Part shown: positions 11,108 to 29,464 of the stretch, piece by piece | Layout of the letters: every line of letters starts with the position of its first letter | Numbering within the stretch: position 1 is the stretch's first letter | Assembly (NCBI GenBank): GCA_021324155.1 | Contig: JAJPJQ010000024.1 | Span: 1-64,000, forward strand | Length of the DNA: 64,000 bases | From: Pseudomonadota bacterium | Lineage (GTDB): Bacteria; Desulfobacterota; Binatia; UBA9968 | Reading direction: 5' to 3' | Position numbers and translations under genes: made by a program | The notes under the pieces: generated by a model | The model's input: only the letters and a program-made list of their open reading frames with translations | What the model was told of the DNA's origin: nothing | Databases searched by the model: none

Positions 11108-11162
11108 GGTCAAACCTTTGGCCGAGGCTACAGGATACCGCCGCGACAATCAAACCGTATCC

Positions 11163-13939: not shown

Positions 13940-13959
13940 CAACATCGCACGAGGGCTCT

Positions 13960-15654
13960 ATGAATCGATGGCTCGTCGCGCTTCTCATCATCATGGCCTG
14001 CGGCTTATCCGGCAACGCCGCCGAGCAAGCGAAGTATCCCGCCCCGCGGTTTCCCGCCTACCTAAAACCGCCTAAATCGATCGACGACATCATGCCGTAC
14101 GCGCGCGCCGCGGTGCGGCAGACCGGCGGGCGGACGCCGCTTGGCATGGTCGAGAAGGGGACGCTGATCGGCCTTGTCACCGAAGCAATCGCCGACGACA
14201 TGGTCCTGCAGGCGATCGTCCGCGCTTATAAGGAGCGCGGCGTCGAGGCGCGCATCATTCCCGAATACGAGCTCGCGGGCGTGAGCCGCGAGGAAGCCGT
14301 GAAGGCCATTCGCGCGAACAAGTGGTACACCTCCGAGCTCGGCTATATGGAAATCAAGCCGTGGATCACGCAGCGCTTCGCCGATCCGGAGGCGCCGAAG
14401 AAATGGCTGAGAGAGCGCCGGCCGGATATTTACAAGGCGATGTTCGCCAAAGACGACGAGGTCTCGCCGGCATCGCTGGAGATTTTCAAGAAGCTCGCGC
14501 AGCGCAACATGGGCCAGCTGCTCGCGAAGTATCTCGAGGAACATCCAGAAGTCAAAGGCGTCTTCTGGCGCCGCGGTGGCCGGCCGAACACACGCAAGGC
14601 GATGGGCCGTCAGGGCGAAAAGCTCATCGGCAACTTCATTTTCGACAACCATTGGGAGTTGATGAACAAAGCAGCGACCTTTCCCGGCGACGTTTGGAAG
14701 CTCTCGGAGGAGCGCGTGATCGAGCCGTTCGCCTGGGTCGAGCAGGTTCACGTCACCGACCCGGAAGGAACGAATTTCACTTTCTCGGTCAACGAAAAAG
14801 AAGCGTCGGCATGGGCAGAGGGCGCGTATCAGCAGGGGCATCTCTATCTCTACCCGACGCAGGCGACGCGCGGCTTTCCGTATTCGAAAGTGGATTATCC
14901 GGCATGGTCGAAGCACTGGCTCGCGCCGATTCTCATCAAGGTCAACGGCGTTTTCGCTGGCACGAACAATCACTACGGGACGTATCCGCGCATCGAAGTG
15001 ACGGTCAAAGATGGTGTCGTGAGCGACGTCAAGGGCGGCGGAATCTACGGCGACCTCTGGCGCGAGTTCTTGAAGTATCCCAACATCAACGAGGCGCAGT
15101 ATCCTTTTATGCCGGAAAAGGGCTACTGGTGGCTCCACGAGGCCGGCCTCGGGACGAATCCGAAATTTTTCAAGCGTCCCGACGAAAACAAGGAAGGAAA
15201 CAATATTTCGGAGCGCAACAACGCCGGCGTGATCCACTGGGGCTTCGGCTTGAACATGCTGCATGGCCCGAAGGAAGCCGTGCTGCCGAAGGAGTGGATC
15301 GACTTCACCAAGACCGCGAACCTACCCGACGACCATGGCTGGCATATCCATAACCTTTTGCCGACTTATCGCGTCAAGGTGCGGGGCACGAAGGCGACGT
15401 GGCTCACGCTCATCGACAAGGGCGAGCTGACGGCCTTCAAGAGCCCGGAGATCCGCGCGCTCGCGTCGCGCTATGGCGATCCGAACGAGGTTCTGAGCGA
15501 CGACTGGTCGCCGTACCTCCCCGGCATCAACGCGCCCGGCCGATACGACGACTACGCGAAAGATCCGTGGAAGACGGTCTCGACGGTGATCAGGAAGATC
15601 GAGGACGGTAGCTTCGAATATTTTTACCCGGCGACCAGAAAAGCTCGCCAGTAG
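13960..15654 (+). CDS. Exported M29/NicX-like protein, paralogue 2 of 3
   Basis: 564 residues, signal peptide about 1-20 (MNRWLVALLIIMACGLSGNA, cleavage before AEQAKYPAPRF). It is collinear with its neighbours over the full length: ARAAVRQTGGRTPLGMVEKG, VFWRRGGRPNTR, GNFIFDNHWELMNKAATFPG, DPEGTNFTFSV, NYG-type change to GTYPRIEVTVKDG, YGDLWREFLKYP (Asp for the Glu seen in the other two), LHEAGLGTNPKFFKRPDE, NNAGVIHWGFG, DHGWHIHNLLPTY (Gly for Trp). The two active-site-region changes hint at altered activity or substrate. Start at ATG 13960 is set by the signal peptide; 20 bases after the first gene. Enzyme activity unknown. Confidence 0.75.
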   Translation: MNRWLVALLIIMACGLSGNAAEQAKYPAPRFPAYLKPPKSIDDIMPYARAAVRQTGGRTPLGMVEKGTLIGLVTEAIADDMVLQAIVRAYKERGVEARIIPEYELAGVSREEAVKAIRANKWYTSELGYMEIKPWITQRFADPEAPKKWLRERRPDIYKAMFAKDDEVSPASLEIFKKLAQRNMGQLLAKYLEEHPEVKGVFWRRGGRPNTRKAMGRQGEKLIGNFIFDNHWELMNKAATFPGDVWKLSEERVIEPFAWVEQVHVTDPEGTNFTFSVNEKEASAWAEGAYQQGHLYLYPTQATRGFPYSKVDYPAWSKHWLAPILIKVNGVFAGTNNHYGTYPRIEVTVKDGVVSDVKGGGIYGDLWREFLKYPNINEAQYPFMPEKGYWWLHEAGLGTNPKFFKRPDENKEGNNISERNNAGVIHWGFGLNMLHGPKEAVLPKEWIDFTKTANLPDDHGWHIHNLLPTYRVKVRGTKATWLTLIDKGELTAFKSPEIRALASRYGDPNEVLSDDWSPYLPGINAPGRYDDYAKDPWKTVSTVIRKIEDGSFEYFYPATRKARQ

Positions 15655-15667
15655 CCGAGAGGTTCAC

Positions 15668-17368
15668 ATGAAGAAGCGCTGGATCGTTTCCGCGGTCATC
15701 CTCGCATGCGCGGCGTTCGGCTACGTCTGGAGCGCCGAGCAGGCGAAATATCCCGCGCCGCGCTTCCCGTCCTATTTGAAGCCGCCGAAGTCGATCGAGG
15801 ACATCATGCCGTACGCGCGCGCCGCGGTCCGGCAGACCGGCGGACGCACGCCGCTCGGCCTCGCGGAGAAGGGCCAGACGGTTGCGATTTTCACCGAGCC
15901 CAAGGCCGACGAGATGGTCCTGCAGGCCATCAAGCGCGCATACGAAGAGCGCGGGGTTAAAATTCAGATGATCCCCGAGTCGCAGCTTCTAGGCGTGACG
16001 AAGGAAGAGGCGCTGAAATCGGTCAAGGCGCTCCGCTGGTTCACCTCCGAGCAGGGCTACATGGAGGCGCACCGCTGGATTCTGAACGCATTCTCCGATC
16101 CATCGATGCCGAAAAAATGGCTCAAGGAAAAACGGCCCGACCTCTACAAGGCGATGTTCGAGAAAGAGGAGACGCTTTCGCAGGAGCAGGTGGACCTCGC
16201 GCGAAAATTCGGCGGGCGCAATGTCGCGCAGGCGATCGTAAAATATCTAGATCAGCACAAGGAAGTCGACATCGTCTTCTGGCGCCGCGGCGGGCGCACC
16301 AACACACGCCGGCAGATCGAGCCCTATCACAATAAATTATACGGCAACTTCATCTTCGACAACCGCTATGAGCTGATGAACAAGGCATCGACCTTTCCCG
16401 GCGACGTGTGGCGGCTCGTCGAAGAGCGTGTGATCGAGCCGCTACGATGGATCGATCAGGTGCGTGTCAACGATCCCGAGGGCACGAACTTCAGCTTCGA
16501 GGTCGACGAAAAGCAGGCGCTGGCGTGGGCGAAAGGCGCCTATCAGCAGGGCCATCTCTTCATGTTTCCGCACCAGGCGACGGGTCGCTTCCCTTATTCG
16601 GCCGTCGACTACCCGGCATTCACCAAAGAGTATCTCTATCCATCGCTCGTGAAAGTGAACGGCGTTTTCGCCGGCACGGGCAATCACGCCGGCAATTACC
16701 CGCGCATCGAAGTCCATGTCAAGGACGGCTACGTGAGCGAGGTGAAAGGCGGCGGGGTTTACGGCGAGCTGTGGCGCGAATTCTTGAAATATCCCAAGAT
16801 CAACGACCTCAAGTATCCTTATTTCGACCAGCCCGGCTACTGGTGGCTCTACGAGGCGGGCACGGGAACCAATCCGAAATTTTTCAAACGCCCCGACGAG
16901 AACATGGAAGGAGAGAATACCTCCGAGCGCAATAACGCCGGGACGATTCACTGGGGCTTCGGCCTGCGCCTCGACCATGGGCCGCAGGGTCCGGTCGAGT
17001 CGAAGGAATGGGTCGAGTTCGCTAAGCAGAACAATCTGCCGAACGACCACTGGTGGCACATCCACAACACGCTGCCGACTTATCAGGTGAAAATCCGCGG
17101 GACGAAAAGCACATGGGTGACGCTGATCGACAAAGGCGAGGTCGTATCCCTCAAATCGCCGGAGATCCGCGCGCTCGCGTCGCGCTACGGCGATCCGAAC
17201 GAGGTCCTGAGCGACGACTGGGCGCCGTATCTGCCGGGCATCAACGCGCCGGGCCGCTACGAGGACTACGCCAAAGACCCGTGGAAAACCGTCACGATGG
17301 TGATGAAGAAGATCGAGGACGGCAGCTACGAGTATTTTTATCCGAAGAAGACATCGGATAAGCGTTAG
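15668..17368 (+). CDS. Exported M29/NicX-like protein, paralogue 3 of 3
   Basis: 566 residues, signal peptide about 1-22 (MKKRWIVSAVILACAAFGYV, then WSAEQ). Candidate metal ligands, by analogy with the M29 pattern: E348 in NYPRIEV, E367 in GELWREF, E396 in YEAGTGTNP, H428 in TIHWGFG, and H461, H464 and H466 in HWWHIHN. The C-terminal 90 residues (KSPEIRALASRYGDP, PYLPGINAPGRYEDY, KKIEDGSYEYFYP) are nearly identical among the three. Starts 13 bases after paralogue 2 and ends 39 bases before the FtsX-type permease gene. Could be a periplasmic metallohydrolase or an extradiol-type dioxygenase; the sequence does not decide. Confidence 0.75.
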   Translation: MKKRWIVSAVILACAAFGYVWSAEQAKYPAPRFPSYLKPPKSIEDIMPYARAAVRQTGGRTPLGLAEKGQTVAIFTEPKADEMVLQAIKRAYEERGVKIQMIPESQLLGVTKEEALKSVKALRWFTSEQGYMEAHRWILNAFSDPSMPKKWLKEKRPDLYKAMFEKEETLSQEQVDLARKFGGRNVAQAIVKYLDQHKEVDIVFWRRGGRTNTRRQIEPYHNKLYGNFIFDNRYELMNKASTFPGDVWRLVEERVIEPLRWIDQVRVNDPEGTNFSFEVDEKQALAWAKGAYQQGHLFMFPHQATGRFPYSAVDYPAFTKEYLYPSLVKVNGVFAGTGNHAGNYPRIEVHVKDGYVSEVKGGGVYGELWREFLKYPKINDLKYPYFDQPGYWWLYEAGTGTNPKFFKRPDENMEGENTSERNNAGTIHWGFGLRLDHGPQGPVESKEWVEFAKQNNLPNDHWWHIHNTLPTYQVKIRGTKSTWVTLIDKGEVVSLKSPEIRALASRYGDPNEVLSDDWAPYLPGINAPGRYEDYAKDPWKTVTMVMKKIEDGSYEYFYPKKTSDKR

Positions 17369-17407: not shown

Positions 17408-20350
17408 ATGAGCATCAAGTTTCATCTCGCCAAGATTCTCGGCCGGCGCGCGGCGCTCGCCTTCGGCATCGTGACGCTTCTCATTGCCGGGCTGCTCGCC
17501 GCGATCAACGTCGCGTCGCGCCATGCGCTGAAGCTCTACATCGAAGACCAGCTCTCGCGCCTGTCGTGGGACATCGCGCTCTACCAAACGACCGAGTTCT
17601 CCGTATCGAAGGACATCACGCCGCGGCTTCGCGCCGTAAACGGCGTCGAGCGCGTGGAGAGTCTGACGTTCCTGCGCTCCAAGCCGCCGCCGGAGGCGGC
17701 GCTCCAGGTCGATCGCAAGCCGCTCGCGTCGCCGTGGGTGTCGATCCTCGCGGCAACCGACCTGTCGCTGCTGCCTTCCGAGGTGCGGCCGAAAGCGGGC
17801 GACAGCGGCGCGCATCTCGCGCTCGTCGGCCCCGAGCAGCAGATGGGGCATGCCTTTCTCGCGCTGCAGGGCGCGAAGAATTTTTCCGTCATCGTCCACA
17901 GCCACAGCAGAAAAGGCGAGGCGGAGCTTTTCGACCTGCCGGTGCGCGGCGTCGTGCGCCTGGAGCGCGCCGAGGTCAACCGCTATTTCATGGACGAGAT
18001 CGGCACGATCTCGTTCGTGCCGTACATCGGCGTCATTCTGGTCATGCCGCACGATTTCGAACGGCTCCGGTGGTTCGACGCGCTCTCGCGCGGCGCGCTG
18101 GGCGGCTCCGGCGATATCCATGCGACCGCCGGCGAATACCTGCCGGAAGTCATCCATCTCGCGCGCGTCGACCGGAAGAAATTGATTTCCGGCTGGGACA
18201 TCCGCGGCTCGGTCGCCAATCTCAAAAGACTACAGACGGATATCGAAGCGCAGGTTAGCTCGCTCGGGCCCACGATCTTCGTCGATAATGCTATCCTCGT
18301 GCTCTTGAACCGCATGGCCGAGATCTCGCGCCTGCTCTACTTCGCGACGCTCTTGATCGCGATCCCACTGCTCGCGATCGCATGGATGCTCGCGTCGAAT
18401 CTTTCCGCGCTGCTAATTTTGAACGAGCGGCGCAAGCTCGGGCTCATGCGGCTGCGCGGCGTGCCGGGCGCGCTGCTCGGGCAGAGTTTATTGCTCTCGA
18501 TCGGCGCCGGCGGCCTCATCGGCGGCGTGATCGGACTCGTTCTCGGCACGCTGCTGCCGCTGGCGCTTTACGAGGGCGGCGCGCTGTCCTGGACGGTGCT
18601 CGGTCACGTTCAGGGGCCGGTGCAGATGCTTCTGTTTCTCGTTGTCGGGCTCGTTTTCGCGTTATGGTCGAGCCGCAAGCTCGTCCACTACGCGACGACG
18701 ATATCGCCGCTGGAGGCGTCGCGGCGCGTCGCGCCGTCGGAGTCGATGGAAGCGGCAATGCGCTTCGGTTCGCTCCAACTCGCCGCCCTTGCTATCGGTC
18801 TTTACAAAGTCGTGAGCTGGGCGGTCGACTTCGATCCGGCGCGGCGCTTTCCGCCCGCCGAAGATGCGTCCGCTTCGTGGATATTTTTCATCAAGTCGCT
18901 GTTCATGCTCGACCGCGCGCTCGACTTCGTCGCGCTGCCGCTCGTGGTCTACGGCATCGTGACGCTGTTCGTTTCACGCCGCAGTTTGATGACCGCGCTG
19001 CTCGCCGCGGTTTCGCGGGTGCTCGGCGGTCCGCTGCGCCGTCTATCGCTGCGGCACATGTCGTTCAAGCCGCACCGCATCGCAAGCTTTTTACTGATCG
19101 TCGCGCTGATGGCGAGCGTCAGCCTCTATCCGAGCATCGGCGCGAGGTCGTTCGAAGACAAGGCGCTGCGCGGCGCGACCGTCGAGGTCGGGAGCGAGCT
19201 GCACATCGCGCTCGGCCCCGGCGACCTCGTACCGGCGGAAAAGCTCGATCAGGGCCTCGGTCCGCAGGCGCAGGCGCTCCGCAGCGCGGTTAAGGAGCGT
19301 CTCGGCGCCGTGCGTGACGACAACATCGTCTCGGTAGACACGATTATCGAGGCGCTGCTGCCGGGCTTTTTCTTCCCCGGCTACGGCCTCAGCGGCGTCC
19401 CGCTTTATCTCATCGACGACCCGGAGCGCTATCTGCAAACGGTCTTTTACGACGAGAAGCTCGGCGTCGGCGGAAATTTCAGCGGCATCATTCGCGACCT
19501 CAAAACCGAGAAAGTCGCCGCTTCGCCGCCGGTCGCCGAGTTCTGGAATCTGGCGGCCGGAGATCCGATCCTGCTCGGCGCCGATACGGAGAAAAAGCCG
19601 GTGCTTGTTCCCGGCGGAGGCGTGATCGGTTTTTTGCCCGGTATGCCGCCGCGCAGCATCGCCGACCGGCAGAGCTTCGTTTCGGCGCGCATTGATTACC
19701 TGAATTACCTCTCTAGCAACGATGCCTATCTGGTTGCGACGGCGGACAATTCGAAGATCGCTAACCTCAAGGTGCTCGTGCCCCGCGTTCTGCTGCTCGT
19801 GCGGCTCAAGCGCGAGCAGGGCGCGGACGCTGCGGTGCAGGCGATCGCCGGCGCGCTCCGCGCGCGGCCGCTGGAAGTACGCGTGCTCGGCCGCGAGCTC
19901 AAGAAGATCGGCGGCGACATGTTCATCTTTCTCGCGCTCGAGAACATGCGCATCTATCTCGTCGGCGGCATGCTGCTCGCGCTGATCGCGATCGGCGCGA
20001 TCGCGCTGACGAATTATTTGGAGGACCGGCGCACGCTCGGGCTGCTCCGCGTGCGCGGCGCGTCGCCCGGGCTTATGTTCAAATTTTTCGCGTTGATGCT
20101 GCTGGCGCCGGCGCTCGCGGGTCTCGTGATCGGCGTCGTGATCGCGGCCATCGCGGGTTTCGGACTGACGAATCTCATATGGGATCTCCGCGAGATCAAG
20201 TCCGTCGTCCATCTCCTTCCGACGCATCTCGTGCTTTCCGGGGCGACCGTTTGGATCGGCGCGGGACTCTTCTTCGTGATCGGCGGCATCGCCCTCTTGT
20301 TCAGCCTGTGGGTATTCCGTCGGTCGGCGCGGGAAAGAATGCTCGAGTAA
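17408..20350 (+). CDS. FtsX/MacB-family ABC permease (two-half, YbbP-like)
   Basis: 980-residue permease with two FtsX-like halves, as in YbbP and fused Lol-type permeases. Such systems (type VII ABC) do not move solutes across the inner membrane; they push lipoproteins or periplasmic substrates by mechanotransmission. Seen: N-terminal helix (about 15-33), a large periplasmic domain (to ~290), helices around 300-430 with the coupling motif RRKLGLMRLRGVPGALLGQS, helices near 495-520 and 555-575, a second periplasmic domain (~576-840), then helices near 845-960 with RRTLGLLRVRGASPGLMFKF. Directly follows the three exported paralogues (39 bases) and precedes its ATPase (16 bases), so those exported proteins are candidate cargo or partners. 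Confidence 0.85.
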   Translation: MSIKFHLAKILGRRAALAFGIVTLLIAGLLAAINVASRHALKLYIEDQLSRLSWDIALYQTTEFSVSKDITPRLRAVNGVERVESLTFLRSKPPPEAALQVDRKPLASPWVSILAATDLSLLPSEVRPKAGDSGAHLALVGPEQQMGHAFLALQGAKNFSVIVHSHSRKGEAELFDLPVRGVVRLERAEVNRYFMDEIGTISFVPYIGVILVMPHDFERLRWFDALSRGALGGSGDIHATAGEYLPEVIHLARVDRKKLISGWDIRGSVANLKRLQTDIEAQVSSLGPTIFVDNAILVLLNRMAEISRLLYFATLLIAIPLLAIAWMLASNLSALLILNERRKLGLMRLRGVPGALLGQSLLLSIGAGGLIGGVIGLVLGTLLPLALYEGGALSWTVLGHVQGPVQMLLFLVVGLVFALWSSRKLVHYATTISPLEASRRVAPSESMEAAMRFGSLQLAALAIGLYKVVSWAVDFDPARRFPPAEDASASWIFFIKSLFMLDRALDFVALPLVVYGIVTLFVSRRSLMTALLAAVSRVLGGPLRRLSLRHMSFKPHRIASFLLIVALMASVSLYPSIGARSFEDKALRGATVEVGSELHIALGPGDLVPAEKLDQGLGPQAQALRSAVKERLGAVRDDNIVSVDTIIEALLPGFFFPGYGLSGVPLYLIDDPERYLQTVFYDEKLGVGGNFSGIIRDLKTEKVAASPPVAEFWNLAAGDPILLGADTEKKPVLVPGGGVIGFLPGMPPRSIADRQSFVSARIDYLNYLSSNDAYLVATADNSKIANLKVLVPRVLLLVRLKREQGADAAVQAIAGALRARPLEVRVLGRELKKIGGDMFIFLALENMRIYLVGGMLLALIAIGAIALTNYLEDRRTLGLLRVRGASPGLMFKFFALMLLAPALAGLVIGVVIAAIAGFGLTNLIWDLREIKSVVHLLPTHLVLSGATVWIGAGLFFVIGGIALLFSLWVFRRSARERMLE

Positions 20351-20366
20351 TTTTTCGGAGGGTTCG

Positions 20367-21065
20367 ATGGCAGAGAACGGGTTTTTCGTCAATCGCGGCG
20401 TCGACGTCAAGGTCGACGGACTCGCGAAAAGCTACCGCACCTCCGCCGAAGAGGTGCGCGCGCTCAAAGGCATCGACTGGCGGATCACCGCCGGCGAAGC
20501 GATCGCGCTCATGGGACCGTCGGGTTGCGGCAAGACGACGCTGCTGAATATTTTGGGCGGTGTCGATCACGCCACCGCGGGCGAGATCGTCGTCGGCGGC
20601 GATACGCTCGGCGCGCTCGGCGAGCGCGAGCTGGAGCGCTATCGGCTTCTCAAGATCGGCTTCGTTTTCCAATTTTTCAATCTCATCCCGACTCTCTCCG
20701 CGTTCGAGAATTTAGAATTGCCGATGCTGATTGCCGGCGTCGCGATCGCCGAGCGCGCGCGCCGCTGCCAGGGGCTGCTCGGCATGGTCGGGCTGGCGGA
20801 GAAGATGCATAAGCGTCCCGAGGAGCTTTCCGGCGGTGAGCAACAGCGCGTGGCCGTCGCCCTCGCGCTGGCGAATGACCCGGCGCTGATCCTCGCCGAC
20901 GAGCCGACCGGCAACCTCGATACCGAGAACACGGCGTCCATTTCGGCGCTGTTCGTTTCGCTCGCCGAGCGCTACGGCAAGACGGTGATCATGGCCAGCC
21001 ACGATCCCAAGGCGGTCGAGCAATTCAGGAAGGTCTACCGTATGCGCGACGGCAGGTTCGAATAG
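20367..21065 (+). CDS. ABC transporter ATPase, LolD/MacB/YbbA type
   Basis: ATPase for the preceding permease, 232 residues. Seen: Walker [13 protein letters not shown] (about residues 51-62), Q-loop [19 protein letters not shown], signature [15 protein letters not shown], Walker [15 protein letters not shown], switch histidine in MASHDP. [17 protein letters not shown] and DEPTGNLD are characteristic of the LolD/MacB/FtsE group and fit an FtsX-type partner. A ribosome site GGAGG lies 9 bases before the ATG. It ends the operon that begins at 12248. Substrate unknown. Confidence 0.93.
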
Positions 21066-21137: not shown

Positions 21138-21214
21138 CGGACCCCAGATGATTGGAAAGGCTTTGTGTGGTAGCGGCATCTGCGCGGGCAAACCCCTTTC
21201 CAACGGTCCTTTTA

Positions 21215-23176
21215 ATGTCGACGCTGCCAATTTATGGTGAACATTTCGGCTTAACGAGCCAGCCTTTTTCCGTCAGTCCGGACCCAAAATTTCTCTACGC
21301 CAGTCCGAGCCATAAGGAAGGCTTGGCGCAACTGAGCTATGGCATCCAGGCGCGCCGCGGTTTCGTGGTGCTCACGGGCGAGGTCGGCACCGGCAAGACG
21401 ACGCTCATCCGTTCTCTGTTGCAACAACTCGACGACGGCCACACCCGCATCGCGTTTATTTTTACACTGATTCTGAATATCCGCGACTTGCTGCGGACCG
21501 TCTGCGAAGAGTTCGCGCTTGTCGCTCCGAAGGACGCTCCCAAAGATCCGCACGACTATCTCGTGCTCATCAACGAATTCCTGCTGGAATCGTACAAGAA
21601 AAATGTCGGCGTCGCGCTGATTGTGGACGAGGCGCAGAACCTCTCGCACGAGGTGCTCGAAGGAGTGCGGCTGTTGTCGAATTTCGAGACTGCCGAAGAT
21701 AAGCTGCTCCAGGTGCTGCTCGTGGGTCAGCCCGAGCTCGACGCGCGCCTGGCCGAGCCCGAGCTGCGTCAGCTGAAACAGCGCGTAGCACTACGGTGGA
21801 ATCTGAGTCCGCTGAACTTGGCCGAATGCGAGGAATACATCGCGCGGCGTCTCGCGATCGCGGGTGGCCGCGGCACGATTTTTCCCGTCGAGACGATCCG
21901 TGCCGTCTACGCCTATTCAGGCGGCATTCCAAGGCTCATCAACGTGCTCTGCGACAACGGCATGCTCACTGCGTATGCGCTCGACCAGCAAAGCGTGGGG
22001 GTAGCGATTATCAAGGAGGTCGCCCACGATCTCAACCTTAGCTTGACGCCACAAAAACCCGTTCCCCTAAGTACTGCGACGATTCCGATCAAGTTTCCCG
22101 AAGCGCCGGCGGCCGATGCGGAGCCGAAAAGTCCGCCAGCCACGACCACCGCGCCGATTTCACCGCCTCGACTGGTCGATGAAAATCGTACCGCCGCCGC
22201 GGCTACCCGGCCTCGGCCGATGCCGGAGATGCAATCGGCCGGTAAGGCAGCTGTGGAGCGCGCGCAACCGAAGACTCTCGCGCCGATTTCACCGACGCGG
22301 CGGGTCGAGGAAAATAATACTGTCGCTTCGGATGCCCGGCCTCGATCAATGACACAGATGCAATCGGTAGCTAACGCAGCGATGGAGCGCACGCAACCGA
22401 ACACCGTCGCTCCGATTCCACCACCTCGACGGGTCGAGGAAAATCACGCCGTCGCCGCGGACGCCGGGACTCAGCCAAGCACGCAGATGCAATCGGCCGC
22501 TAACGCGGATTCGGAGCCCGCGCCGCCGACGATCGTCGCGCCGATTCCGGCGCCGCTGACGATAGAGGAACGTGGCGTGGTCGCTGCAGAAGCGGAGTCT
22601 CGGCCGGTGCCGCATATCCAATCGGCTGCAAGGGCAGCGCTGGAGGCCGCACAGCAGCGCGCCGCCGAGATTCAGCAGTCGCAGGCGAAATCCCGTGAGA
22701 TGCGCGAAAGACCTTTTCCAAAACCGACTCTCGCACCGAAAGTCGTATCCGCTTTAAAGTCCGAGCCCGCTGCAAAGGTCGTTGCCGAGCCGGAGCCGGC
22801 GGTCGTAGCGAATGAGCCGGAAGCAAAAATCATCGAAGCCGACATAAAAAGATCGGAAGAAATAACCATCGTACCCAAGACAAACCAACCGGAAGAAAAA
22901 GCTGTCGAACACGCCGCGAGCGTCGCCGAGGTCGTTCCGCAGCGATCCATACACCGCATGCTCGCGGCGCTGACGGACGCGATGGGGCCGATGGCCTCAG
23001 TGGTGGTTCGCGATCATGTGGATGCTCTGGGCGAGTCGATGGACAATTTTCCCAAGCAGCGATTCCGCGAGCTGGTGTACTCGACGAGTGGCGAGATTCT
23101 CAGCGAGCCGCTGAGAACGCGCTACGAGAATGTCATGTCGGAAGAGGTCCGCGCGCTCGGTGCATTCGAGGAGTAA
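21215..23176 (+). CDS. ExeA/GspA-like AAA ATPase with 43-residue repeats
   Basis: 653 residues. The N-terminal ~270 residues are an ExeA/TniB-type AAA ATPase: YGEHFGLTSQPFSVSPDPKF start, Walker A TGEVGTGKTTLIR (residues 54-66), Walker B VALIVDEAQNLS (~140-151), sensor VLLVGQPELDARL, and the GGIPRLINVLCDNGML box. In ExeA it helps secretin assembly with a peptidoglycan-binding partner, but no membrane helix or wall domain is visible here. Residues 313-484 are four 43-residue Ala/Pro/Glu-rich repeats, then an acidic linker, then a compact C-terminal domain (AALTDAMGPMASVVVRDHVD ... QRFRELVYSTSGEILSEPLR). ATG 21215 is preferred over an in-frame TTG at 21152. Shares one base with the next gene. 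Confidence 0.82.
   Translation: MSTLPIYGEHFGLTSQPFSVSPDPKFLYASPSHKEGLAQLSYGIQARRGFVVLTGEVGTGKTTLIRSLLQQLDDGHTRIAFIFTLILNIRDLLRTVCEEFALVAPKDAPKDPHDYLVLINEFLLESYKKNVGVALIVDEAQNLSHEVLEGVRLLSNFETAEDKLLQVLLVGQPELDARLAEPELRQLKQRVALRWNLSPLNLAECEEYIARRLAIAGGRGTIFPVETIRAVYAYSGGIPRLINVLCDNGMLTAYALDQQSVGVAIIKEVAHDLNLSLTPQKPVPLSTATIPIKFPEAPAADAEPKSPPATTTAPISPPRLVDENRTAAAATRPRPMPEMQSAGKAAVERAQPKTLAPISPTRRVEENNTVASDARPRSMTQMQSVANAAMERTQPNTVAPIPPPRRVEENHAVAADAGTQPSTQMQSAANADSEPAPPTIVAPIPAPLTIEERGVVAAEAESRPVPHIQSAARAALEAAQQRAAEIQQSQAKSREMRERPFPKPTLAPKVVSALKSEPAAKVVAEPEPAVVANEPEAKIIEADIKRSEEITIVPKTNQPEEKAVEHAASVAEVVPQRSIHRMLAALTDAMGPMASVVVRDHVDALGESMDNFPKQRFRELVYSTSGEILSEPLRTRYENVMSEEVRALGAFEE
22151..22666 (+). 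repeat. 129-base in-frame tandem repeat, four units
   Basis: Units begin at 22151, 22280, 22409 and 22538, each with GC(G/T)CCGATT(T/C)C and coding for 43 residues that open with API(S/P). Every unit keeps an (D/E)EN or EER core near residue 10 and a MQSA or IQSA core near residue 28, with drift increasing toward the last unit. The exact 129-base spacing shows duplication rather than convergent low complexity. Confidence 0.92.
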
Positions 23177-23928
23177 TGATGAGTACAGAAAAAACAGATT
23201 CACGACGTCGAATGGGGCTCAAGTGGCAGATCATGGGCGGTGTGACCTGCGCAATGGTCGTCTTCGGTCTGCTCGTTATCGGGATCGTGCAATACCGCAT
23301 GACCTCTCTGGTGCGGAAGCAGCTCGACCAAAGGGCCCTCGATTTGGCGGTAAATCTCGGCGACAGCGCCGCGGGCCGCGTACTCAAGGGGGAAGTGTTG
23401 GAGTTGTATGCGCTAATCGCGAAATACTCTCTCTCGCCCGGCGTCGCGTACACGATAGTGCGAGACGGACAGGGCGCCGTCGTCGCCAACAGTCTGGGAA
23501 CGCCGACACTGCCGCCGGAACTGAAGGATTCCAGTCGTCCAACGGCCGGTCCGGAGCGCCGCGAGGTCGTCTTCCGCGGCCGGACGGTTTATGAGACCTC
23601 CGTCCCGATGCTTCAGGGCAGGGTAGGGAGTGCGACGGTCGGCTTCTGGGGCGATAGTCTCGCCCAAGAGGTTCGCGGCGCCGTGCTGCCGGTCGTCGGC
23701 CTCATCGTGCTCGCGTTGGCGGCGAGCCTCATTGCGTCGCTTATCGTCGCCAAAGGCATTACTGCGCGCATGCTGCGGCTGAAAGAAGTCGCAGACAAGG
23801 TCAGCAGAGGCGATCTCGAGACGCCTGTCGGAATCGACTCTAATGACGAGATCGGCGATCTCGCGCACTCCGTCGAGCGCATGCGCGCGAGTCTCAGGGC
23901 GGCGATGGCGCGGCTCAGCCGAGCATAA
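23176..23928 (+). CDS. Membrane sensor-like protein with HAMP domain and no output domain
   Basis: 250 residues: short cytoplasmic N-terminus, membrane helix about 19-40 (MGGVTCAMVVFGLLVIGIVQ), extracytoplasmic domain about 45-165 (VAYTIVRDGQGAVVANSLG suggests a small Cache/PAS-like fold), second helix about 167-190, and a HAMP domain about 190-245 (KEVADKVSRGDLETPVGIDS, then NDEIGDLAHSVERM). The protein stops right after HAMP: no kinase, cyclase or methyl-accepting segment follows, and the next frame downstream is an unrelated gene. It overlaps the ATPase stop by one base (ATG at 23176; a second ATG at 23179). It could sense an envelope signal for the ATPase. Confidence 0.78.
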   Translation: MMSTEKTDSRRRMGLKWQIMGGVTCAMVVFGLLVIGIVQYRMTSLVRKQLDQRALDLAVNLGDSAAGRVLKGEVLELYALIAKYSLSPGVAYTIVRDGQGAVVANSLGTPTLPPELKDSSRPTAGPERREVVFRGRTVYETSVPMLQGRVGSATVGFWGDSLAQEVRGAVLPVVGLIVLALAASLIASLIVAKGITARMLRLKEVADKVSRGDLETPVGIDSNDEIGDLAHSVERMRASLRAAMARLSRA

Positions 23929-23946: not shown

Positions 23947-25458
23947 ATGAAAACGATCACAATCAATTCGCAACGGCGCGCGCTCAAGTCCGCGCTCGCG
24001 TGCATTTTCACTCTGGCGCTGTTTTGCGCCGGGCCGGCGACGGCCGCCGAGAAAGCGCCGTCGCTGGAAAAAATCAGAATCGCCTACAGCAGCATCTCCG
24101 GCAATCAGATCCCCGCCTGGGTGGCATATGAAAAAGGATTCTTCCGCAAAAACGGCTTGGATGCCGAGCTCGTCTTTATCGAGGCCGGCAGCCGCGCGGT
24201 GAGCGCGCTGCTCAACGGCGATGTCGCCATGGCCCAGATGGCTGGACCGTCGGTCATTCAGAGCCGGCTTCAGGGACAGGACGTCGTTATCATCGCGGGC
24301 TTTCTCAATACGATGGACTATCAGCTGATGGTGCACAACAGCATCACCAGGCCGGACCAGCTCAAGGGAAAGACGATGGCGGTGAGCCGCGTCGGCTCGT
24401 CGTCCGACTTCGCGACGCGGTATGCGCTCAACAAGTACGGCCTGATACCCGATAAAGACGTGACGATCGTCGAGATCGGCAGCCAGCCGGCCCGCTTCGC
24501 CGCGCTCGAAGCGGGCAAGATCCAGGGCGCGATGGTGACCGTGCCGCTGACGCTCAAAGCGAAAAAGCTGGGCTTTCACGCGCTCGCGGATCTCCAGATG
24601 CTCGGACTCGAATACCAGCACACCGCGCTCGTGACGAGCCGGGCTTTGATCAAGTCGAAGCCGGAGGTAGTGCGCAACGCGATGAAGTCGATGGTCGAGG
24701 CGATCCATTATTACAAGACGCAGCGGGCCGACGCTTTGGCGGTGCTCGGAAAATATCTTAAAGAGAATTCGCCCGAAGCGCTCGACGAGACCTACGAAGG
24801 CATCGGCCTCGCGCTGATTCCCGAGAAGCCGTACCCGACGCTACGCGGCATTCAAATCATGCTCTCCGAGTTGTCGGCCAAAGACCCCAAGGCGCAGAAG
24901 GCCCGTCCCGAGGAATTCGTCGACACGAGCTTCATCAAGGAGCTGGACGCCTCCGGCTACATCGACCGTCTATACAAATCGCAGCAGCCCGTCGCCGCGG
25001 CGGCTTCCGCCGATCAGGGCCGCGCCGCCACGCCCGCGCCTCCGGCAAAGGAAAAGCCGGCCGTCGTGGCGAAGACGACGAAGGAAAAGCCGGCGTCGCC
25101 CGATAAATCCGCTGCGGCCGACAAGAGTGCTTCAACCGGAAAAGTTACGACAGCCGACAAGTCTGCGGTATCCGACAAAGCAGCGACAGCCGACAAGACT
25201 ACAAGCGCCAACAAAACTGCGCCAGCGACGAAAACGGCTCCGCCTCCTGCTGCGGAGACGTCCGCTGCGCTGCCTCAAGAATATACTGTGAAGGCCGGTG
25301 ACACGCTCTCGAAGATCGCTGGGCAATTTTACGGGACGCAGCAAAAATGGCAGAGGATCTTTCAGGCCAACGCCGAGACATTGAAGAACCCCGACTACAT
25401 TTTCATCGGACAGAAGATCACCATTCCTGCGGACGAAGCGTCGCAGAAGAAGGGGTGA
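23947..25458 (+). CDS. NMT1-like substrate-binding protein fused to a C-terminal LysM domain
   Basis: 503 residues. Signal peptide about 1-33 (ending GPATAAEK). Residues ~38-340 are a full NMT1-type binding domain (KIRIAYSSISGNQIPAWVAY, FFRKNGLDAELVFIEAGSR, GKTMAVSRVGSSSDFATRYA). Residues ~355-435 are a low-complexity Lys/Ala/Ser/Thr/Asp linker with a loose DKSA/DKTA repeat. Residues ~441-497 are a LysM domain (EYTVKAGDTLSKIAGQFYGT, then QRIFQANAETLKNPDYIFIG, then QKITIP). LysM binds peptidoglycan, so this binding protein may be wall-tethered. The fusion is open and in frame across 25069-25265 without a stop. Lies 18 bases after the HAMP gene with which it is probably co-transcribed. Confidence 0.88.
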   Translation: MKTITINSQRRALKSALACIFTLALFCAGPATAAEKAPSLEKIRIAYSSISGNQIPAWVAYEKGFFRKNGLDAELVFIEAGSRAVSALLNGDVAMAQMAGPSVIQSRLQGQDVVIIAGFLNTMDYQLMVHNSITRPDQLKGKTMAVSRVGSSSDFATRYALNKYGLIPDKDVTIVEIGSQPARFAALEAGKIQGAMVTVPLTLKAKKLGFHALADLQMLGLEYQHTALVTSRALIKSKPEVVRNAMKSMVEAIHYYKTQRADALAVLGKYLKENSPEALDETYEGIGLALIPEKPYPTLRGIQIMLSELSAKDPKAQKARPEEFVDTSFIKELDASGYIDRLYKSQQPVAAAASADQGRAATPAPPAKEKPAVVAKTTKEKPASPDKSAAADKSASTGKVTTADKSAVSDKAATADKTTSANKTAPATKTAPPPAAETSAALPQEYTVKAGDTLSKIAGQFYGTQQKWQRIFQANAETLKNPDYIFIGQKITIPADEASQKKG

Positions 25459-25560
25459 GCCGGACGACTGCGGTGCGCCGCACAAGGCGCGCGCCGACTT
25501 TCTCGCCGCCCGCATCCTTGATGGTTGCCGACGGCGCGCTCGCGCGGTAGCGACGCGCCG

Positions 25561-27762
25561 ATGAAACGACATGCCGCGATTCTGCTTTGCTTCGCCGTTT
25601 TCTTTACTGTCGAAATCTTAGTCGCGTTCCGAGATAAGTCGCCGACGGTCGACGAGGCGTATCACGTCTTCGCCGGCTACACTCATCTCAAATGGGGCGA
25701 CTTCCGCGCCTATCCCGAGCACCCTCCGGTGGCGAAGGTGCTGGCGGCGCTGCCGCTGCTCGCGCTCGACATTAAAGATCCGCGGCGATCGCCGCGTTGG
25801 GAGCGGCTCGCTGAAGAGCGACAGTACAACTACGCTCTGGCAAGCGAGATGCTGTTTCGAGACAACGACGCCGATAAAATTTTCTTTTACGCGAAGCTGC
25901 CGATGATCGCCGTCGGCATCGTGCTGGGAATCTTCGTCTACATTTGGGCGGGTGAGCTTTACGGCCGCGCCGCGGCGCTCGTCGCGCTCGCGCTCTACGC
26001 GCTCGATCCCAACATTCTCGCGCACAGCTCGATCGCCCAAACCGATGTGACATTCGCGGCTTTCTTTTTTATCGCGAGTTATTTCTTTTTTCGCTGCCTC
26101 CGCCTACTGACCTGGCGCGACTTGGTTTTCGCGTCCGTATTCTGCGGCCTCGCGGTGGTTACGAAGTTCTCGTTCGCGGGGATATTCGCCGTGTGGTTTA
26201 TCGCAATCGTTGTCCGTGTTTTTTCGCAGGAGCCCCTCAGGTCGACAATCCTCATCCATGGAGACGTGGCGGCGCACATGAAAAAGGCGGCCCTCCTCGC
26301 GACGCTCCTAGGCTCCGTATTACTGGCGAGCTACGCGAGCATCTGGGCAGCATACCGATTCCGTTGGACCGCGACTTCCGACGGCGGCGTCCACTTTCCG
26401 CTCGCCTATGCGCTTCCGGACTCAGGTCTCGGCCGCGCGGCGGCCGAGTGGGTCGCCGCCAGCCACATTTTTCCCGAGGCCGCCGTTTACGGCGTCCTCT
26501 TCGTCATGAAGACGATTCACCGCGCGAGCTACCTCTTGGGCCAAGTGTCCCTCGATGGGTTCTGGCTTTATTTTCCGTTCGCGTTCGCCGTGAAAACTCC
26601 GCTGCCTACGCTGATTCTCCTCGCAGTGGCGATAGTCCTGTGGATTCGCCGCCGGCGCGTGACGGCGGCCGAAGGTTTTCTCGCGCTCTCGGCGCTCGCG
26701 TATTTCGCCTTCGCCGTGGTCTCGCGCATGAATATCGGCCTGCGGCACATCCTGCCCGTCTATCCGTTTCTGTACGTCCTGCTCGGCGGCGTCGCGGCGT
26801 CTTTCTGGAAGTCGCAATCGCGCACGCCGCGCCTGTTCGTATGCGTGCTCGCCGTTTGGCTGGTTACCGGGCTCGCGCGCGTGCATCCCGACCTCCTCAC
26901 CTATTTCAACGAGATCGCCGGCGGTCCCGCGAATGGCTACAAAATGCTGGTCGATTCGAATCTGGACTGGGGCCAGGACCTGAAAGGTCTCAAGCAATAC
27001 GCCGAGAAAAACAACCTGGAGCCGATCTACCTGAGCTACTTCGGCACCGCCGATCCTTGCTACTACGGCCTGCGCTTCGTCGGTCTGCCGAACCCGTATG
27101 CGACGCCGCTCGCGTGTCCGCAAGTTCCGCCGCGCTCCCCGCCGGCCTTCATCGCCATCAGCGCGACGCATCTCGTCTCGACATACCTCAAGTATTTGCA
27201 CTCGTACGACTGGCTCATGCGAATGCAGCCGGCCTCCCGCATCGGCAATTCGATTTTTATATATGACATTCGCGGCAACGCCGAGGCGCATAAGCAGTTG
27301 GCGTTCCTATACCTGAGAGAGGCGTGGGTCAAAGAGGCCCAGCGGGAATTCGCTTTCACGGGCGAGCCGAAGACCGAAAAACAACTCGCAGAGTTCGACG
27401 TCGGAAACAATCCGGAGGTCTACGGCGCGCTGGGAGTCGCGTTTCTCGAAAACGGGATGCTCGACGGAGCGACGGTTGCGTTCCGGCGGGCGATTCTATT
27501 GAATCCCGCCGATTCGGATATGCACAATAATGTCGGCATCGTTCTCCTACGACAGGGAAAAATCGAGGAGGCGATCGGAGCGTTCAAGCTGGCGCTGAAG
27601 ATCGATCCGAAAAACGCGGAGTCTTACAATCAGCTCGGCAACTCCTACGCAAAGCTCGGTCGCGGCGGCGATGCAATCGCAGCCTATAGCGAAGCGCTGC
27701 GCCTCGATCCTGATCACGAAGAAGCGCGCCAAGCGCGGCAAAAACTCTCAGGCGGAAAATAG
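25561..27762 (+). CDS. GT39/PMT-like membrane glycosyltransferase with C-terminal TPRs
   Basis: 733 residues. N-terminal ~520 residues form a polytopic membrane enzyme of the ArnT/PMT type (GT-C fold), which transfers sugars from polyprenyl-phosphate donors outside the membrane. Seen: the first loop with acidic KSPTVDEAYHVFAGYTHLKW (catalytic aspartate/glutamate region), SIAQTDVTFAAFFFIASYFF, and NIGLRHILPVYPFLYVLLGG. The periplasmic part includes KMLVDSNLDWGQDLKGLKQY, a motif seen in PMT-like proteins of uncultured bacteria. C-terminal residues ~610-730 hold three TPR units (YGALGVAFLENGMLDGATVA; HNNVGIVLLRQGKIEEAIGA; YNQLGNSYAKLGRGGDAIAA). Start at 25561 is chosen because the helix begins there. 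Acceptor unknown. Confidence 0.85.
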   Translation: MKRHAAILLCFAVFFTVEILVAFRDKSPTVDEAYHVFAGYTHLKWGDFRAYPEHPPVAKVLAALPLLALDIKDPRRSPRWERLAEERQYNYALASEMLFRDNDADKIFFYAKLPMIAVGIVLGIFVYIWAGELYGRAAALVALALYALDPNILAHSSIAQTDVTFAAFFFIASYFFFRCLRLLTWRDLVFASVFCGLAVVTKFSFAGIFAVWFIAIVVRVFSQEPLRSTILIHGDVAAHMKKAALLATLLGSVLLASYASIWAAYRFRWTATSDGGVHFPLAYALPDSGLGRAAAEWVAASHIFPEAAVYGVLFVMKTIHRASYLLGQVSLDGFWLYFPFAFAVKTPLPTLILLAVAIVLWIRRRRVTAAEGFLALSALAYFAFAVVSRMNIGLRHILPVYPFLYVLLGGVAASFWKSQSRTPRLFVCVLAVWLVTGLARVHPDLLTYFNEIAGGPANGYKMLVDSNLDWGQDLKGLKQYAEKNNLEPIYLSYFGTADPCYYGLRFVGLPNPYATPLACPQVPPRSPPAFIAISATHLVSTYLKYLHSYDWLMRMQPASRIGNSIFIYDIRGNAEAHKQLAFLYLREAWVKEAQREFAFTGEPKTEKQLAEFDVGNNPEVYGALGVAFLENGMLDGATVAFRRAILLNPADSDMHNNVGIVLLRQGKIEEAIGAFKLALKIDPKNAESYNQLGNSYAKLGRGGDAIAAYSEALRLDPDHEEARQARQKLSGGK

Positions 27763-27764
27763 AC

Positions 27765-28076
27765 TCACGTCTTGAAATCCGGATATCCGGTCTTGGTCGC
27801 CTTTTCCTTGTAATCCTTGATCAGCTCTTCGCGGGGCATTTCGTGCGCCCAGATCGCCTCGGTGAAGCTCCAGAGCGTGAACGGGTGCGCGCCCAAAGCA
27901 TAAAGCTTGCCGTAGTCGCGCGCGGCGAGCGCCGCACGCTCCTCGTCGCTGAGCTTGAGCGGCTGATCTTTCTCCCAATTGTCGACGAAAGCGGCGGGAT
28001 TCGCCTTGTATTCCTTCTCGAAGTCTCCGTTCATGTTCACCTGGTGGATGAACTTGTTAAGGACATATTTACTCAT
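27765..28076 (-). CDS. Extradiol dioxygenase alpha subunit, LigA-like
   Basis: 103-residue all-helical protein of the LigA (protocatechuate 4,5-dioxygenase small subunit) family; in the two-subunit enzyme the alpha chain caps the active site of LigB. Seen: YVLNKFIHQVNMNGDFEKEY (residues 4-23), FVDNWEKDQPLKLSDEERAA split over 30-50, and GKLYALGAHPFTLWSFTEAI (about 56-75), all standard for LigA. It is the last gene of a leftward cluster and lies 13 bases beyond the Spy-like gene, which separates it from LigB. Converges on the glycosyltransferase gene with a 2-base gap. Confidence 0.87.
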   Translation of the reverse strand: MSKYVLNKFIHQVNMNGDFEKEYKANPAAFVDNWEKDQPLKLSDEERAALAARDYGKLYALGAHPFTLWSFTEAIWAHEMPREELIKDYKEKATKTGYPDFKT

Positions 28077-28089
28077 AATACGCTCCTGG

Positions 28090-28635
28090 TTAATGCTGCA
28101 TGTGGTGCTCTACGCCGGCTGCAGCCGATGTATAGCCTCTCAGCTCGTCGTACTTCGCCACCTGTTCGGGCGTTAGGATTCTTTTCTGCTCCAAATGCGC
28201 GCGGAGGTGCGCAGCGCGTAGCTCGCCTTGAAGCCGGCCGATGTCGGCGACAGTGGAGTCGAGCTTGGCCTTGTCGATGGAACCGGTCGCGAACAGTTGA
28301 TCCAGATCGCGCTCTTTCTCGACGATGCGCGTGCCTAGCGGGATCGTCTCGCTTAGCATCGTCTTGCGAATGGCTTCCGTGTGCTGCTTCTGCGCTTCGG
28401 TAAGCCTCAACCGATCGGCCAGTTCCAAAACGTGTATCGGTCCGGGATAGTGATTCAGCTCGCCGGCCTTGGCGAGCGCCATGCCTTGGCCGTTGAGATA
28501 CCCGTGGATCTCGTCGTCGGAGAGCGCCTTGATGTCGCGCGACTGCTGGCCGGCGTAAGGGGAGGGGTGTTGCTGAGCGATGGAAAATGACGGCGCTAGC
28601 AGCATGAAAAGAAAAAGTAGTTTACGCATTGTCAT
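28090..28635 (-). CDS. Spy/CpxP-like periplasmic protein
   Basis: 181 residues, signal peptide about 1-22 (MRKLLFLFMLLAPSFSIAQQ). The body is helical with two motifs of the Spy/CpxP/ZraP LTxxQ type: ADRLRLTEAQKQHTEAIRKT (about residues 72-91) and KRILTPEQVAKYDELRG (about 151-167). Members are periplasmic chaperones or metal-stress proteins. The N-terminal half (GYLNGQGMALAKAGELNHYPGP) and the C-terminal HHMQH are found in small secreted proteins of metal-resistance loci. The ATG at 28635 overlaps the LigB stop by 14 bases; ATG 28629 is an alternative. Its place between LigB and LigA is unusual. Confidence 0.8.
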   Translation of the reverse strand: MTMRKLLFLFMLLAPSFSIAQQHPSPYAGQQSRDIKALSDDEIHGYLNGQGMALAKAGELNHYPGPIHVLELADRLRLTEAQKQHTEAIRKTMLSETIPLGTRIVEKERDLDQLFATGSIDKAKLDSTVADIGRLQGELRAAHLRAHLEQKRILTPEQVAKYDELRGYTSAAAGVEHHMQH

Positions 28636-29464
28636 ACCTAAAAAACGGAATAGCCGGCCAGCCCGCGTCGAGGCCTTCGGCGTAGGCAGGCTTTTTCGCG
28701 TTGGCGACGCCCATCATCATGATGAAGTTCAAAAAACCGTGCGTCATGTTGCCGGACTGCCTGAGTTGCGCGAACGAGGAATTGTTGACCGCGCCGTTGA
28801 CGTCGCCCTGCGCAATCCAGCCGACGGCGGTCGCGTCGAAGTTGGGATCGAGCAGGTGGCGCTCGAACTGCTTCGGCCCGCCGATCTCGAGCGACAGATG
28901 GCCGCTCACGATGACCGCGACGCGTTTCTTCGTCTCGAGACTGTCGATGACGGTGCGGATCGCCTGCCCGACCTGATAGAAGCGCTTCGGCCGCGGCAGC
29001 GGCGGCGCGATGCAGTTCGTGAGAATCGGAACGATCGGGATATCCATGTCGGGACGGATGAAGGTGAGCGGCACGATGATCGAGTGGTCGATCGTGAGCT
29101 CGTTCGAATAAGCGAAGTCGACGCCGCGGTCGAAGGCGCCCTCCATGATCGCATCCGCCAGCTCCACGTCGCCGGGAATCTTATGATAGGGCAGGCCGAA
29201 CTCGCGCGTCTCGTCGTAAAACGTGCCGGCGTACGCGTCCATCTTGCCGATCATGAAGGCCGGCATGTTGTCCATGAAGAACTGGTGCAGGTGATCGTTG
29301 CCGATCGTCACCAGCACGTCCGGCTTCGCCTCGGCGAGCTTCGCCTTCATCATCGCGATGCGCTCGATAACTTTTTCCGCGCCGGGCGGACGCGTTGGCT
29401 GCTTAAAGAGCCGCGGCATGAAGGGATTGTGCGTGATGCCGATAATCGAGACGATCTGCGCCAT
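28622..29464 (-). CDS. Class III extradiol ring-cleavage dioxygenase, LigB-like catalytic subunit
   Basis: 280-residue LigB-fold protein. Type III extradiol dioxygenases open catechol-type rings with non-haem Fe(II). Seen: the N-terminal histidine in IIGITHNPFMPR (H12), VTIGNDHLHQFFMDN with the second iron histidine region (H57/H59), FGLPYHKIPGDVELADAI, the base histidine in ELTIDHSIIVPLTF, and VIVSGHLSLEIGGP. All expected His/Glu ligands seem present. A ribosome site AGGAG precedes the ATG; the MDR gene ends 12 bases upstream. The partner LigA is two genes downstream. The aromatic substrate is not readable. Confidence 0.88.
   Translation of the reverse strand: MAQIVSIIGITHNPFMPRLFKQPTRPPGAEKVIERIAMMKAKLAEAKPDVLVTIGNDHLHQFFMDNMPAFMIGKMDAYAGTFYDETREFGLPYHKIPGDVELADAIMEGAFDRGVDFAYSNELTIDHSIIVPLTFIRPDMDIPIVPILTNCIAPPLPRPKRFYQVGQAIRTVIDSLETKKRVAVIVSGHLSLEIGGPKQFERHLLDPNFDATAVGWIAQGDVNGAVNNSSFAQLRQSGNMTHGFLNFIMMMGVANAKKPAYAEGLDAGWPAIPFFRYDNA

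Follow-up and report, generated by a model that had tools for sequence, protein, structure and literature searches.

A LysM-tailed substrate-binding protein and its HAMP-protein cassette in uncultured Binatia: a candidate wall-tethered sensor

An open reading frame on contig C11 of an uncultured bacterial genome encodes a substrate-binding protein (SBP) that ends in LysM, the usual peptidoglycan-binding module. This locus raises the question of whether such a fusion is genuine, and whether it serves uptake or sensing. We analyzed it within a window of 64,000 nucleotides, meaning the whole stretch of DNA studied, and compared it with its relatives in other genomes. The host is an uncultured bacterium of soil and sediment. 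Its close relatives are MAGs that were deposited under the names Candidatus Binatia or Deltaproteobacteria bacterium, and we place it in an uncultured Binatia-like family. The reading that we favor, with a probability of about 0.58, is that the SBP-LysM protein serves as the subunit that binds the ligand, and can be exchanged, in a trans-envelope receptor of three parts, and that it acts as a peptidoglycan-tethered sensor and not in uptake.

The SBP-LysM fusion and its distribution

The gene and the parts of its product, the latter assigned from Pfam, an AlphaFold model and homologues, are as follows.

23947..25458, + strand: SBP-LysM gene; ATG start, 503 aa, no internal stops
Residues ~1-34: signal peptide
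Residues 41-345: NMT1/SsuA-type binding domain
Residues 351-439: disordered linker
Residues 444-495: LysM domain

Pfam placed NMT1 (PF09084) at residues 53-257 (E 7.9e-25; 88.5 bits against a cut-off of 20.5) and LysM (PF01476) at residues 446-494 (E 5e-12; 46 bits against a cut-off of 20.9), which bore out the original prediction of a complete NMT1-type domain and a LysM domain in one frame. An 80-residue Lys/Ala/Thr/Asp linker had also been predicted; the linker is indeed present and 65% K+A+T+D (87% K+A+T+S+P+D), but it is 89 residues long. In the AlphaFold model, which was built on a 24-row alignment (mean pLDDT 79.9, pTM 0.65), pLDDT was below 50 in the linker, mostly above 90 in the binding domain and ~80-91 in the LysM domain. 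Hydropathy analysis further showed a hydrophobic stretch at residues 12-30, which would fit a Sec signal peptide, and no typical lipobox was seen on inspection by eye.

The order NMT1-linker-LysM was found in-frame in 14 other aligned genes and, overall, in 22 genes spread over 13 of 25 genomes from the uncultured Binatia family to which the window belongs, a count that includes two genes split by contig ends. This recurrence rules out an artefact or frameshift as the origin of the fusion and agrees with the earlier claim that the frame is intact. At E<=1e-100, none of the 123 genomes from elsewhere in the class had SBP-LysM, and no plasmid record covered 80% of the query. A separate scan of genome contigs picks up close relatives only, so the absence is stated for these genomes. 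The window's own genome (4.8 Mb, 53 contigs) holds 153 matches to the binding protein, two of which carry LysM: the window copy and a second copy on contig C30.

Phylogenetic analysis of the binding domain alone placed the 20 LysM-bearing rows of 43 in one clade (support 100/99), and many independent NMT1-LysM fusions are thus unsupported. A member without LysM (L227, on contig C25 of G123) nests within this clade as sister of the C30 copy (100/96). When it was added to a second tree, from which eight row prefixes with long or doubtful branches had been dropped, the LysM label needed two changes, which we read as probably one gain and one loss. The 25 family genomes contain 100 LysM matches, of which 22 lie on NMT1 ORFs, one on an ATPase ORF and 77 on others (76 plus a window transglycosylase). 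None of these 77 shares its ORF with an NMT1 match, which rules out fusion of LysM to SBPs as a general habit. The window transglycosylase is an SLT + LysM protein of 544 aa at 9515-11149 (-). Judged from sequence, the NMT1-LysM fusion is a trait of this family, neither an oddity nor an artefact.

The HAMP protein and CTD protein encoded beside the fusion

Next, we analyzed the genes upstream of the fusion, annotated using Pfam together with NCBIfam (ATPase) or hydropathy (membrane protein).

21152..23176, + strand: ExeA/TIGR03015-like AAA ATPase; AAA ~25-300, long linker, helical CTD ~591-674
23176..23928, + strand: membrane protein, 250 aa; TM 19-37, sCache_3_2 46-168, TM 173-191, HAMP 191-242, end 8 residues later

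Pfam matched the membrane protein to HAMP (5e-14) and sCache_3_2 (3.1e-8), and neither Pfam nor hydropathy showed an output domain before the chain stops. Its gene adjoins SBP-LysM in all 22 cases with a gap of at most 134 bp, lying upstream in 21 (one of them fused) and downstream in one (L095). The two full-length homologues of the HAMP protein in the window's genome are both encoded beside its two SBP-LysM genes, and among 395 genomes drawn from the phylum, matches at E<=1e-35 occurred in this genome only.

A gene for a CTD protein precedes the HAMP gene in 20 of the 22 cassettes and is missing from two (L082, L095). Ten of these proteins are ExeA-like AAA ATPases, and ten are proteins with DUF4388, which we take to be the PATAN domain, followed by a winged-helix-like part and the CTD. 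The CTD, a helical domain of ~80 residues common to both types, gave no Pfam match even at E<=5 and was predicted by AlphaFold as a four-helix bundle (residues 189-262). The window ATPase matched AAA_22 (4.4e-26, Pfam), and its TIGR03015 (XrtA/PEP-CTERM ATPase) score of 273.2 bits lies below the NCBIfam cut-off of 324.5. No TM or peptidoglycan-binding domain was found in it by Pfam or hydropathy, and its true start may be a later ATG at ~21215. A 108-aa gene (cc108) lies upstream in 9/10 DUF4388-type cassettes. In these sister cassettes (L025:4566-7035 and relatives), a 430-520-aa single-TM protein and the 108-aa protein, with no clear Pfam match, are encoded upstream of DUF4388-CTD, and their genes often lie below a sigma-54 activator gene. 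Separately, a 307-aa DUF4388-CTD protein of the window's genome (G000 C38, L196:1797-2720, -) had no HAMP or SBP-LysM matches within the 4 kb read.

Two natural fusions keep the cassette gene order: a single 734-aa ORF joins the HAMP protein to SBP-LysM (L026/L098, one MAG), and a single 761-aa ORF joins ATPase-CTD to the HAMP protein (L094). These are weak proof of a complex, since read-through fusion of adjacent genes is easy and each was met in one assembly.

Regions around 40 HAMP homologues were also read, of which 21 contain SBP-LysM, the window being the 22nd case. One region without it stops at a contig end (L097), and in another (L104) the HAMP gene is truncated, matches part of the profile only and has no SBP. 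A third (L100, from G121) still has genes for the ATPase and the HAMP protein, as well as the genes found downstream in the window, and is missing SBP-LysM and the glycosyltransferase. In the 16 remaining regions the homologues are more distant, and many of them are extended by ~100-150 residues at the N terminus and have additional TM stretches. Distant sCache-HAMP proteins with no adjacent SBP-LysM, most with an N-terminal extension of 100-150 residues and further TM stretches, were observed at L099, L101-L103 and L105-L110.

The genes that flank the cassette in the window were annotated similarly (Pfam for the first, Pfam/NCBIfam for the second).

25525..27762, + strand: PMT_2 glycosyltransferase-like + TPR gene, next after SBP-LysM
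17408..21065, + strand: genes for an FtsX-domain permease (980 aa) and a LolD-like ATPase (232 aa), immediately upstream of the cassette

The first is not conserved with the cassette, is absent together with SBP-LysM from the syntenic G121 locus and probably lies outside the cassette. The FtsX/LolD-like pair was not found beside other cassettes and is probably a separate unit. Farther out, two adjacent and mutually related ORFs of 744 and 566 aa (13420-15654 and 15668-17368, +) had no Pfam match at E<=0.01, and a small 103-aa ORF and a 280-aa ORF (27765-29464, -) presumably correspond to the subunit pair of an extradiol dioxygenase of the LigAB type.

Uptake, ligand recognition and exchange of modules

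The original prediction had raised the possibility of sensing in place of uptake. We weighed whether SBP-LysM is an ordinary uptake receptor that serves an ABC importer encoded elsewhere, with LysM simply retaining the protein in the periplasm. The binding domain is of the SsuA/TauA/NMT1 type, the genome carries 80 PF00528 permease matches (against 153 NMT1-type matches), and most of its NMT1 proteins are orphans, which would be compatible with a distant importer. Against this stand the HAMP gene that adjoins every SBP-LysM gene and the lack of PF00528 on contig C30 and within 10 kb of the window gene, for which the nearest match lies 12.4 kb away on C11. Furthermore, no ABC permease was among the commonest 25 of 99 families in 91 neighbor genes of 14 cassettes (91 of 92 listed; L023:1-387 was left out as partial). 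Nevertheless, the missing permease is a weak and unspecific argument, because most NMT1 proteins in this genome are also without one: of 150 NMT1 places listed, only 15 have a PF00528 permease within 5 kb. The set of orphan NMT1-type binding proteins in this genome is itself very large. Adjacency to the HAMP gene is the stronger argument, and we consider uptake improbable.

The LysM-less relative L227 bears on the same question. No HAMP or CTD profile match was found in the 9 kb read around it; two genes for GAF-type histidine kinases lie upstream, and a gene for a 565-aa histidine kinase begins 86 bp downstream. From this single case, the binding domain would seem to have a sensing role and LysM to belong with the cassette. 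The claim of sensing is thus favored by the adjoining receptor and by this relative among histidine kinases, but the missing permease says little for it, and the original interpretation as a whole is partly supported; it did not cover the cassette, the C30 copy or the conservation across the family.

Foldseek analysis of the SBP-LysM model gave 3QSL, ThiY, TauA, Thi5 and SsuA as the nearest folds; for residues 41-345, the E values were 2.2e-19 (3qsl), 1.9e-17 (3ix1) and 1.2e-16 (TauA, 6ssy). The signaling protein AioX (6eu7) ranked 49th. In the LysM clade, G81, T122, G150 and P181 are constant, E79, R148 and D124 are nearly so, and block 213-224 is invariant or nearly invariant; these cleft positions and the block are mostly unlike those of seven paralogues. 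With cleft positions assigned from strand ends in the model, conservation was 0.854 in cleft loops vs 0.798 in the rest (p 0.02) and 0.827 in opposite-face loops. Overall cleft conservation is thus only slightly raised.

Pairwise distances were then compared among the 20 cassettes whose genes are all complete. The distance between LysM domains correlated with that of the HAMP protein at r 0.63 (0.58 with SBP held fixed) and with that of its own SBP domain at r 0.36 (0.21 with HAMP held fixed), and the HAMP-minus-SBP difference was <=0 in 0.7% of 300 column bootstraps. Likewise, partner type of the cassette followed HAMP distance (r 0.48, 0/5000 shuffles) and followed SBP distance weakly (r 0.12, 359/5000 shuffles). 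Single cassettes gave the same picture. G127C565, of the DUF4388 type, shares 83% of its SBP, 55% of its LysM and 44% of its HAMP protein with the ATPase-type G139C147, vs 59%, 78% and 70%, respectively, with G124C578 of its own type; G123C13 showed a similar swap pattern. Since LysM tracks the HAMP protein and SBP similarity crosses types, the binding domain resembles a plug-in module, and LysM seems to belong to the base. We regard this as an indication rather than proof that the binding domain was swapped between the two cassette types while LysM varied with the HAMP protein, because the LysM rows are short (55 columns) and the cassettes are related by descent. Together with the clade-specific cleft residues, the swapping would suggest that ligand recognition matters.

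The single pointer to wall tethering is the LysM domain, which may hold the protein to peptidoglycan. It could instead be a protein-protein or ion-responsive module, of Kbp/YgaU kinship, that fastens the SBP onto the HAMP protein and makes no wall anchor. Among solved structures, the linker+LysM part comes closest in sequence to the potassium-binding protein Kbp (5.1e-16), which to our knowledge is not a proven murein binder, and in NCBIfam it scored best with PRK11198 (61.8 bits, under the cut-off of 134); the correlation of LysM with the HAMP protein would also agree with a clip. However, an ATPase (L118) carries a LysM of the same sequence style although the stretch read around it has no HAMP match, and peptidoglycan is what LysM usually binds. 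We hold this reading, too, to be quite unlikely.

The L118 ATPase (467-1891, -, on contig C383 of G130) is a 474-aa ORF in which AAA (58-186), TM (327-345) and LysM (410-458) follow one another on one chain, which is the ExeA layout. It therefore keeps alive another explanation, an envelope-assembly scaffold like ExeAB/GspAB, in which cytoplasmic ATPase, membrane link and peptidoglycan-binding part would serve a secretion or pilus machine by positioning or opening the wall, and the SBP fold would be a docking or muropeptide-binding part and no nutrient sensor. The place of the window ATPase in the ExeA/TIGR03015-like AAA group and the tendency of LysM to stay with the machine, not with the SBP, fit such a scaffold as well. 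It fits less readily with the ten cassettes that have DUF4388 in place of the ATPase, with HAMP and sCache, which are signaling domains, and with the swapped binding domains and their cleft residues, which point to ligand recognition; moreover, no secretin or pilus family was among the commonest 25 neighbor families (91 genes). A scaffold is accordingly a minority reading, though one to which we give some weight.

Proposed mechanism and comparison with known systems

In the tethered-sensor reading that we prefer, the NMT1 domain would bind a small molecule in the periplasm, and the LysM tail, on its flexible 89-residue tether, would hold the SBP to peptidoglycan beside its partner. Ligand-bound SBP may then dock on the periplasmic sCache domain of the membrane protein, and HAMP would relay the change inward. 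Because the HAMP protein has no output domain of its own, it is expected to act on a separate cytoplasmic CTD protein, which would be the ExeA-like AAA ATPase in the window and DUF4388/PATAN in the sister cassettes. The end effect would be to regulate an envelope machine, be it for pili, secretion or surface polysaccharide, uptake being less likely. More tentatively, the cassettes could form a plug-in sensory machine, where a constant base anchored in the wall (LysM, sCache-HAMP and CTD protein) receives interchangeable binding domains from a single clade and small molecules gate an ExeA-like ATPase or PATAN output that acts directly on the envelope machine without a phosphorelay. If the tethered-sensor reading is right, a small molecule could act on an envelope ATPase without any kinase, and the natural domain swaps would be ready-made chimeras for testing. 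It would also give a concrete role to part of the very large orphan NMT1 set of these uncultured bacteria, of which one genome of 4.8 Mb has 153 matches.

Literature searches found nothing that joins a substrate-binding protein, a LysM domain and a HAMP domain, and nothing relevant on LysM with solute-binding proteins. Papers returned for PATAN or DUF4388 were unrelated. A term search of the Binatota genome paper (PMC8262859) gave no mention of LysM, ABC transporter, peptidoglycan, pili or chemotaxis.

Several known systems resemble parts of the cassette. TauA, SsuA, ThiY and B. bronchiseptica 3QSL have a fold in common with residues 41-345 at ~20% identity, but SBP-LysM differs from them in its LysM tail and in having no importer adjacent. 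As in the cyanobacterial PATAN response regulators PixG and PixE, DUF4388 proteins are used in the sister cassettes; PixG and PixE have a receiver domain, in place of which the cassette proteins combine DUF4388 with the CTD and a winged-helix-like part. A passage in PMC7690835 reports that PixE binds the pilus motor PilB1. ExeA/ExeB (GspA/GspB) of type II secretion combine an AAA ATPase, a membrane part and a peptidoglycan-binding part, and ExeA binds peptidoglycan and works with ExeB, as a section of PMC4098917 describes. These three kinds of part are in common with the cassette, and the single-chain ExeA layout was met only in L118. In contrast, the window parts are on three chains, with the wall-binding domain on the SBP and sCache-HAMP as the membrane part.

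AioX-AioS-AioR, in which a periplasmic binding protein senses arsenite, is similar in that an SBP gene lies beside that of a membrane receptor with no importer, the receptor gene here being present in 22/22 cassettes. AioX is not known to carry a LysM tail. AioS is a histidine kinase, whereas the cassette membrane protein stops after HAMP and its partner is an ATPase or DUF4388 protein; a histidine kinase was found beside the LysM-less L227 only, not at the SBP-LysM cassettes. The AioX-type binding protein, encoded beside its membrane receptor, is thought to act as the ligand of the receptor, according to a passage in PMC5908839. Binding proteins that feed signals to receptors are thus known, and what is new, as far as our literature search shows, would be a wall-tethered SBP subunit, a receptor without an output domain and an ExeA-like ATPase or PATAN partner. 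We therefore propose that the SBP-LysM cassette may carry out binding-protein-dependent signaling of the AioXSR kind, from which it departs in having no histidine kinase.
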